Positions 13,825 through 17,435 of a DNA stretch of 50,966 nt are shown here, piece by piece. Both the position numbers and the translations under genes were made by a program. The notes under the pieces are model-generated. The model was not told the origin of the DNA. It was given only the letters and a program-made list of their open reading frames with translations, and ran no database searches. The stretch spans positions 1 to 50,966 of the forward strand of contig JACRKA010000060.1 of NCBI GenBank assembly GCA_016219905.1, in the 5' to 3' direction. This DNA comes from Verrucomicrobiota bacterium. Its GTDB lineage: Bacteria > Verrucomicrobiota > Verrucomicrobiia > CAIQCK01. Within the stretch, counting starts at the first letter, position 1. Every line of letters begins with the position of its first letter.

Positions 13825-14916
<1,092 letters not shown>

Positions 14917-14934: not shown

Positions 14935-14987
14935 TGGAGTGCGGCGGCTTGACGCCGCCTTCCATCGGCCCGGCTTGACGGGCCGAT
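14935..14987. repeat. Half copy of GCTTGA-loop double hairpin repeat
   Basis: GGAGT + GCGGCG-GCTTGA-CGCCGC (14941-14958) then ATCGGCCCG-GCTTGA-CGGGCCGAT (14964-14987); same architecture as 25243-25391. Confidence 0.85.
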
Positions 14988-15210: not shown

Positions 15211-15276
15211 GCCTAACGAACGTCCAAGGTCAGCGACGGCGCGGAGCGCCGTTCGCTGAAGCCTGGTTGGTTAGGC
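15211..15276 (-). other. attC-like integron recombination site (attC1)
   Basis: Ends are GCCTAAC ... GTTAGGC (RYYYAAC/GTTRRRY cores) with internal imperfect stem TCAGCGACGGCGC-GGA-GCGCCGT[T]CGCTGA carrying a single extrahelical base; stop codon TAA of the 15271..15576 ORF lies in the GCCTAAC core (minus strand). Confidence 0.8.
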
Positions 15277-15576
15277 GTCTTCGTCAATCTTCGCGTTTTC
15301 TCGAATCCACTTCCATGCATCGGGCGGCAGCATGCCCTGACGCTCTGTGAGATCGACGCTCAAAATCAAATGCGTGTTTGAGAGTTGGTGCTGCTCGAAG
15401 CAAGCTCCGGCGTGTCGCGAGAGGTCGCCGACCGAAAGGTCAGTTCCGATGATGTAAGAGTTCTTTAGGTAGTGCCACCACCTGTAAATGCTTTGGTGGG
15501 CCACGAAAGCGTCGTGGAAGCCCTTGTAGGACTTGCCGAACTGGCGATCGAAAATGAGTAGATAGAATCTCATCAC
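15271..15576 (-). CDS. Hypothetical protein (101 aa), putative integron cassette ORF
   Basis: Complete ORF; stop codon embedded in attC1 core; overlaps 15573..15971 by 4 bp. Confidence 0.65.
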   Translation of the reverse strand: MMRFYLLIFDRQFGKSYKGFHDAFVAHQSIYRWWHYLKNSYIIGTDLSVGDLSRHAGACFEQHQLSNTHLILSVDLTERQGMLPPDAWKWIRENAKIDEDA

Positions 15577-15971
15577 TTCTCGGTGGGCGGCAGGGTTGGT
15601 TTGTCGGGCGCGGCCTCAAGCGTGAGTTCACTCTCGACGACCTGTGCGTCGAGTTGTCGAGTTTCGCTCCCCATCAGTTCCATCTCCATGCGCATGACAC
15701 GCTCAATGTGCTTTTCTGAGCGACAAAAGTGTGGATCCTGAAAGGCCTTGATCGCGAACAGAATGATAAAAGCTAGACCGGCCAGCAGGAGCAATGCTAG
15801 CGCGGCGTAAACGACGGGCATCATGCTGCTGAAGCCGGAGAGCAGGCAAAGAACTATCCCGCAAACGAGAAGAAAGAACACAAGGTATGGTCGAAAGCCG
15901 CTCGAAAGCTCCGCCGTGCGAAACCAATCCTGGGCTGACCTAACCCAATTGAGCGGATTAAACGGATTCAT
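15573..15971 (-). CDS. Hypothetical membrane protein (132 aa), putative integron cassette ORF
   Basis: Two TM segments (YLVFFLLVCGIVLCLLSGF; VVYAALALLLLAGLAFIILFAI); starts ~23 bp after the attC2 core. Confidence 0.65.
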   Translation of the reverse strand: MNPFNPLNWVRSAQDWFRTAELSSGFRPYLVFFLLVCGIVLCLLSGFSSMMPVVYAALALLLLAGLAFIILFAIKAFQDPHFCRSEKHIERVMRMEMELMGSETRQLDAQVVESELTLEAAPDKPTLPPTEK

Positions 15972-15993
15972 TTGGAGGTGACGCGCTCACGAC

Positions 15994-16119
15994 GCCTAAC
16001 GACCAAGCTCAGCGACCGCCGCCGACAGGGACGGTGGCGCAGGAAGGGCGCGTCCAAACTCCCGCCCCGCACCGAGCGCAAGAGCGGGGCGGCAGTTCGC
16101 TCGACCGATTGTGTTATGC
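15994..16119 (-). other. attC-like integron recombination site (attC2, long form)
   Basis: GCCTAAC (15994-16000) ... GTTATGC (16113-16119); imperfect arms AAGCTCAGCGACCGCCGCC / GGCGGCAGTTCGCTCG and inner hairpin CCGCCCCGC/GCGGGGCGG. Reads ...GCTGAGCTTGGTCGTTAGGC on the minus strand. Confidence 0.78.
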
Positions 16120-16133
16120 GTTCGATTCATGCT

Positions 16134-16454
16134 CTAGCTAAACTTACCGAACCAAAACGACATGACCGCTGCGATGGCGGTCATAGCCCAACGCACTCTC
16201 TCGCCTTTATATATCGGCGAGAGCAGAATGTATAAAGAGGCACCCGAGACAGCGAGGGAGACGATGGCAAGCATCCAAAGTCTTACTGTGGGGTCAATCG
16301 GCGCAACAGCAACACCGGCGAGTCCTGCAAGACCGTATGCGGGAGTTTTGGTGAGAGGCTTCGTGGAACGCTGCTGATCCTGCGGTTCTTTAAGCTTGAG
16401 CGCATCGGGATCGTTCTCGGCTCCGCACTTACTGCATATCCATATCTGTTTCAT
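16134..16454 (-). CDS. Hypothetical membrane protein with N-terminal CxxC zinc-ribbon-like motif, putative integron cassette ORF
   Basis: MKQIWICSKCGAENDPDALKL... then TM segments (VRLWMLAIVSLAVSGASLYILL); lies between attC2 and the core-like GCCTAAC at 16492. Confidence 0.65.
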   Translation of the reverse strand: MKQIWICSKCGAENDPDALKLKEPQDQQRSTKPLTKTPAYGLAGLAGVAVAPIDPTVRLWMLAIVSLAVSGASLYILLSPIYKGERVRWAMTAIAAVMSFWFGKFS

Positions 16455-16491
16455 AGGAATTCGATTCGCGATTCGGAGACTGCCGCAGAAC

Positions 16492-16498
16492 GCCTAAC
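16492..16498 (-). other. Isolated attC/attI-type core (GTTAGGC on minus strand)
   Basis: GCCTAAC at 16492-16498, 38 bp upstream of the 16454 start; no convincing partner core found on the other side. Confidence 0.45.
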
Positions 16499-16732
16499 AG
16501 GTATTCGGCTTCCTATTTGACGTTTTGTAAAGCGACACGGCGGACTTTGGAACTTGGCTTGGCACGAGTCCAGAACATTTTACGCGGTTGGCGCGTTTCA
16601 TATTGATCCGGCAAAGGCAAACAGAGCGAGGGGCAGACAGCAGGCTGCCAAAGACACGGTTGCCAGAGTGCTGGACAAGCAGAGGCCCAAGTCACGTTCC
16701 AGCCTCTCAACGCTCCATCCGCAAGAGGAAAG

Positions 16733-17065
16733 CTATCTCTGCGCGACCTTGGCTGGCGCGGGCTTGTCCTTAGCCTTGGCGATGTTGCCAGCATTGAGGG
16801 TGGCGAGGTAGTCGCCGAGGGCGGTGATTTCTTCCTTCGTGCCAGCAAGCGCAGGCATGAAGGAGCGGTAAGGCGAGTCGGCCTTGTGCTCGTGAAGAAC
16901 GGTCAGGAGGTTGCCGATGGCCTCGCGGTTGCGCTCGCCCAGCAGATGCTTCATCGAGCGATAGCCATAGACCGTGTTGTGGCAGGCCATGCACTGGCCG
17001 CTGCAAGCCGGCTTCCATCGGCTTGAAGTCATCTGCCAGAGCGGGTCAACCTCCGCCAACATCAC
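16733..17065 (-). CDS. Cytochrome c-like fragment (possibly truncated gene)
   Basis: CMACH heme-binding motif near the N-terminus, YRSFMPALAGTKEEITALGDYLATLN C-terminal c-type cytochrome pattern; no export signal in frame and start overlaps upstream gene. Confidence 0.55.
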   Translation of the reverse strand: MMLAEVDPLWQMTSSRWKPACSGQCMACHNTVYGYRSMKHLLGERNREAIGNLLTVLHEHKADSPYRSFMPALAGTKEEITALGDYLATLNAGNIAKAKDKPAPAKVAQR

Positions 17066-17366
17066 GCTTGCAGATGTTCTCCCAGCCGGGATTGTTCCAC
17101 TTCGCCGGATACGCCGCGCACTGTTCCGGCCGCACGGGATAGATGACGCAGTCGTTGCCTCTCAGGAACTGGCAGGGCGATGCCGGGTCGCCCTTGATGA
17201 CGAGGTCGCGCCGGTCGCGCGCGAGGTCGGTGTGGCGCTGGATGAAGTCCTGTTCCGTCAGCTTCAGGAACGCCGCCATCCGCGCGATGTCGGTTTCCGT
17301 CAGGTGAATCTGTCCCGGAATCCGGCAGCACTCACCACACCGCGTGCATTGGAAAGTCGTCGTCAT
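17046..17366 (-). CDS. YkgJ-family cysteine cluster protein
   Basis: MTTTFQCTRCGECCRIPGQIHLTETDIARMAAFL...CQFLRGNDCVIYPVRPEQCAAYPAKW; start chosen downstream of the hairpin repeat. Confidence 0.85.
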   Translation of the reverse strand: MTTTFQCTRCGECCRIPGQIHLTETDIARMAAFLKLTEQDFIQRHTDLARDRRDLVIKGDPASPCQFLRGNDCVIYPVRPEQCAAYPAKWNNPGWENICKRDVGGG

Positions 17367-17367
17367 C

Positions 17368-17435
17368 AGAGTGGGCCGTGCGTCCCGCACGGCTCATCGT
17401 TGATCATTGGCCGTGCGGGACGCCCGGCCCACTCT
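17368..17435. repeat. Large inverted repeat (26 bp arms, 16 nt loop)
   Basis: AGAGTGGGCCGTGCGTCCCGCACGGC (17368-17393) / GCCGTGCGGGACGCCCGGCCCACTCT (17410-17435): 25/26 complementary. Confidence 0.92.

Follow-up and report, generated by a model that had tools for sequence, protein, structure and literature searches.

A probable decayed chromosomal integron with a conserved attI leader in a Verrucomicrobiota bacterium, and related integrase-less cassette stations across its family

The origin of integrase-less cassette clusters is debated. For CALINs, formally groups of two or more neighbouring attC sites with no intI nearby, three origins have been published: intI loss, rearrangement and stray insertion (PMC8618304). 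In Xanthomonas, intI was lost from one ancestral platform at ilvD, and extra CALINs occur at seven loci (PMC12444791). Cassettes are also found outside complete integrons as attG insertions (PMC12444791, PMC12901181), and attI fragments are known inside arrays, where they mostly replace the attC located 3' of a gene. The region described here lies on a contig of 50,966 nt, analysed in its entirety (the window), and had been proposed in an initial annotation to be a CALIN-like array. Indeed, it contains two attC sites 0.7 kb apart, carries small-gene cassettes as CALINs do, has no intI nearby and falls within the formal definition. Unlike a CALIN, however, it appears to retain attI, so that it is better described as an integron that has probably lost intI, and its origin by this route becomes demonstrable; the earlier interpretation is partly supported. 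Also unlike CALINs, related stations are numerous per genome and often hold one cassette, such that many would miss the two-attC threshold. As in the decayed integrons of Xanthomonas, cassettes of an ancestral integron persist while intI is missing or disrupted in many lineages, but there a single ilvD platform is involved, whereas here some genomes have more than 10 dispersed leader-bearing stations and no family genome examined has an intact intI. The known attI fragments likewise stand beside cassettes and have a similar attI 3' end (ATGTTRRRY in attI2), but the long leaders reported here are placed 5' of the first gene. A conserved leader is not expected of attG insertions. In the literature, of which our coverage is incomplete, we found no description of a family with numerous attI-bearing stations per genome and no intact intI in any member. 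The system is of a known kind (CALIN/decayed integron) in an unusual variant.

The window is one entire contig (G000:C335) of a 4.88 Mb assembly (G000) that comprises 393 contigs and is 89% complete. The host flank is marked by hypD, whose protein is 95% identical in a genome of the same genus (G001). DNA similarity with that genome runs to window position 14947 and ends after hypD; with synteny lost past this gene, G001 provides no empty site for the locus. No relatives of the region's DNA were found among plasmids and E. coli genomes. On the other side of the cassettes, a 110-aa ORF (16733-17065, minus strand) matches only part of 460-550-aa proteins of relatives, the window copy looking truncated, and is adjoined by a gene with a CxxCxxCC domain (17046-17390). 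The features of the locus are as follows, with scores from the attC covariance model R3 (see below).

13825-14916, plus strand: hypD, host flank (PF01924, E 2e-158)
15211-15276, minus strand: attC1, 66 nt (51.9 bits, E 6.7e-11)
15217-15999, minus strand: cassette 2, 783 bp, with two genes that overlap (from core positions and the attC model)
15271-15576, minus strand: ORF of 101 aa in cassette 2, overlapping the stop of the 132-aa ORF; remote relatives only
15573-15971, minus strand: ORF of 132 aa in cassette 2, predicted membrane protein
15994-16119, minus strand: attC2, 126 nt, with a long variable terminal loop (39.3 bits, E 9.5e-8)
16000-16497, minus strand: cassette 1, 498 bp between inferred cleavage points (cores read directly; attC model)
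16134-16454, minus strand: ORF of 106 aa in cassette 1, with a zinc-ribbon-like CxxC at the N-terminus and hydrophobic segments after it
16492-16627, minus strand: attI leader (probable Pc region and attI), about 136 bp, assigned by homology and ending in the core GTTAGGC (16498-16492)
16602-16628, plus strand: remnant of the opening ~9 codons of intI (IDPAKANRA), opposite the attI leader; the peptide in this frame is conserved

The two attC sites had been recognized by their core pairs. Direct reading bears out GCCTAAC...GTTAGGC for attC1 (minus strand, 15276-15211), whereas attC2 (minus strand, 16119-15994) reads GCATAAC...GTTAGGC, its recombining core GTTAGGC being perfect and its 5' core one base off RYYYAAC, so the strict consensus claimed for this pair does not hold. 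Such pairs alone prove little: the pattern GCCTAACN{38,68}GTTRGGC matches only attC1 in the whole assembly, but its backward-read control is commoner, with five matches, and the core-pair pattern by itself was rejected as evidence. For this reason, covariance models were built. R1 was trained on 13 attCs from intI-adjoining loci, namely, attCs beside verified intI in other genomes of the class and those of class 1 integrons, and R3 on 47 attCs of other loci with full loops; neither set includes a site from the window. R1 gives attC1 44 bits on the minus strand (E 2e-10) versus 12 bits on the plus strand, and in its alignment the 5' arm carries an additional A, a feature shared with canonical attC. 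This model misses attC2 because the loops of its training sequences had been trimmed, whereas R3 finds it. With R3, the two sites are the best two matches in the 51-kb window, both on the minus strand, the next best elsewhere scoring 15.6 bits. The cores, paired arms and extrahelical base of gene-cassette attC are all present, and both sites postulated initially are upheld. A related site exists in a different species of the family: over 116 bp, long loop included, attC2 shares 76% identity with an attC belonging to a cassette array on G006:C33.

The ORFs between the cores are compact and co-oriented, as in gene cassettes, and start 37 and 23 nt past a core; the 101-aa ORF ends in a TAA (15271-15273) that sits within the attC1 core. 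These arrangements agree with what had been described from the sequence, and so does the lower GC content of the cassettes (55% versus 65% in the window). The cassette proteins had been said to match no recognized family; neither the 106-aa nor the 132-aa ORF could be assigned to a family above the cut-off. Only remote relatives of the cassette-2 proteins were detected in 335 genomes of the class, none of them with an attC alongside, and no relatives of the 132-aa protein were found among viral contigs.

The two cassettes stand 3' of a third core (16498-16492), which had been listed with the attC sites but turned out to be the 3' end of the attI leader. This leader is 83% identical over 137 bp to a stretch of the same genome (G000:C181) beside another cassette, and similar stretches adjoin cassettes in four other genomes. 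A sequence model detects it in six of the seven genomes of the family (9, 1, 11, 19, 14 and 5 matches per genome); outside the family, it is absent from 134 other genomes of the class save three weak matches. We examined 47 leader copies from six family genomes. At 46 of them an ORF begins 0-55 nt past the core in the same direction, and the remaining one is near a contig end. Within 2.5 kb downstream, the models detect an attC in the same orientation at 29 of the 47 leaders and in the opposite orientation at none; the other 18 have no above-threshold attC downstream, so some of these have decayed or are no genuine stations. The genes behind the leaders are unrelated, with only two pairs of related ORFs among 46, and 44 of the 46 have a GC content below that of their surroundings (mean 54% versus 62% for the loci). 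Pfam matches of these ORFs are few and diverse (DMP19, RraB, DUF695, DUF2262, methyltransferases and a PAS histidine kinase), and one of the 45 scanned with PADLOC matches a TIR effector model. An ORF in the cassette position after a weak leader match (L120, 4329-5144, plus strand), starting CFVIAPIG, is possibly this match. Separately, a repetitive sequence with a period of ~41 bp is common to the upstream regions of leaders L053, L068, L099, L102 and L120. A constant left side followed by unrelated genes at a fixed junction looks like an integron attI. The conservation of the leader and its homologue beside a full-length intI in another family (G124; see below) argue, at the level of sequence, that the array begins with an attI on its 5' side. 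The leader is a putative working attI and promoter; a consensus scan revealed no recognisable sigma-70 promoter in it.

Relics of intI point in the same direction. The peptide I.PA[KN][AT]NR occurs in the same frame opposite most long leaders, and in four of them it runs on into IntI sequence. N-terminal intI fragments of 85, 79, 28 and 26 residues abut the leader divergently (L069, L098, L051 and L101, respectively). Furthermore, in G124 a full-length intI (355-aa frame) has a leader homologue ~95 bp upstream, in divergent orientation. This homology to the family leader is modest (nhmmer E 0.026); none of 200 shuffles reached the alignment score for any of five family leaders. By contrast with the 11 of 39 genomes of a wider sample that contain a full intI, none was found in the seven family genomes. 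As had been reported from the sequence, intI is missing from the 51-kb contig (no TIGR02249 match), and a search of the whole assembly, suggested at the same time, found only the N-terminal fragment on contig C337. Neither this genome nor those of the family has the functional intI next to attI that makes a complete integron. An intI could be missing from the assembly itself, which is 89% complete and in 393 contigs. On a related point, the same assembly has zero Phage_integrase (PF00589) matches, XerC/D included, probably owing to incompleteness. Elsewhere in the class, a single-contig genome (G027:C1) carries three very similar full-length intI genes near positions 336766, 2469594 and 2681428 (L021-L023), each near copies of a gene for a 342-aa tyrosine recombinase, with attC-like sites between them in L023. 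Genomes G095 (G095:C355, G095:C258) and G124 (C24, C28, C64), from families other than that of the window, have full-length intI and weak leader matches on other contigs, and it is possible that their stations are served in trans.

Several leader loci are orthologous between species. One, shared by G005, G006 and G002, has both flanks conserved and unrelated cassettes behind the leader. At another, which lies between genes for a peptidase and lipoate-protein ligase, the contents range from attI, cassettes and a fragment of intI in G005, through a remnant of the leader with about three cassettes in G006 and a single ORF in G004, to an empty site of 98 bp in G002. Similarly, G000:C337 and G006:C6 have 0.9 kb of upstream flank in common, with the intI fragment kept only in G000:C337. 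These comparisons indicate that stations are inherited, that intI erodes and that cassettes change. The junctions fall exactly at the core, which suggests that cassettes were exchanged by an integrase and not removed by random deletion, and different cassettes at two orthologous loci, together with the empty site in one species, suggest an integrase acting in trans, now or formerly. Such an integrase may still be present somewhere, may have acted from another replicon or may have been lost recently. Alternatively, the differences could reflect differential loss from a longer ancestral array.

Overall, we consider it very probable (roughly 87%) that the region is a small chromosomal integron that has lost intI and kept an attI leader and two cassettes, and that integrase-less stations of this type exist throughout the family. 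On the minus strand, the proposed order would be attI leader (16627-16492), cassette 1 with attC2 and cassette 2 with attC1, and of intI presumably all but the first few codons, opposite the leader, has been lost. The cassettes would have entered at attI by IntI-catalysed recombination of attC with attI, the exchange point lying between G and TT of GTTRRRY, and a promoter in the leader probably drives transcription of the gene of the first cassette. Across the family, intI-less stations of a leader and one to three cassettes would be dispersed, some loci being vertically inherited with intI variously eroded, and the integrase that may have swapped the cassettes in trans would either be absent from the present assemblies or have been lost.

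An alternative that we entertained for the third core before recognizing the leader is off-target insertion, with cassettes put at a secondary, attG-like site by an IntI encoded elsewhere and no integron ever present here. A lone GTTAGGC without an attC partner upstream of the first cassette is what a secondary site would give, and the genome has no intI. However, a secondary site would not be conserved, and the 136 bp preceding the core recur as a leader next to other cassettes, both in this genome and in the rest of the family, with intI fragments at four leader loci. It is this leader beside the cassettes of the window that favours an integron with a decayed intI and leads us to choose intI loss among the three routes to CALINs; off-target insertion is largely refuted and now seems highly improbable. 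Inverted repeats arising by chance, or ordinary intergenic hairpin repeats of the REP/MITE type, could be invoked because the core pattern alone is no rarer in the genome than its backward control, but this explanation is refuted by the strand-specific model scores and the strict orientation of attC behind leaders, and its probability is negligible.

A more serious competitor holds that leader, cassette and attC form a mobile one-gene integron without integrase, copied in trans, rather than old integrons losing intI. It would account for the 5-19 leader matches per genome in the better assemblies, for the tandem leader-cassette-attC units in L055 and L106, for upstream sequence common to three copies in G005, a genome in which repeats also recur ahead of several leaders, and for similarity on the intI side ending at the same point in about 20 loci. 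This common edge may mark the left end of a dispersing unit or, instead, the limit of a promoter/attI element under selection. In L106 (G006), at about 3970+948 to +1010, the second leader-cassette unit is preceded by a second copy of ~61 bp from the 3' end of the flanking host gene. Nevertheless, the leaders compared within G000 are just ~70-83% alike, and the copies are hence old; several loci are orthologous between species; and the intI fragments come in several lengths. We therefore regard dispersal by copying as unlikely, if less so than off-target insertion. Somewhat less doubtful, yet still rather unlikely, is the notion that the leader-attI-cassette-attC arrangement is a dispersing, non-autonomous one-gene integron, with numerous individual stations per genome for docking and expression, which an integrase encoded elsewhere loads and unloads in trans. 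If a dispersing module did exist, the integron of this lineage would be spread across the chromosome instead of being confined to one array.

For the preferred reading, an integron whose intI has decayed, one consequence is that a recognisable, lineage-specific attI lets intI loss be separated from stray insertion locus by locus. The pattern of intI-less stations is also family-wide, something that one window could not reveal. The family also offers a set of lower-GC, mostly uncharacterised genes behind a common leader. Moreover, with dispersed stations holding different genes at the same orthologous place, function in trans by stations without an integrase of their own becomes testable.
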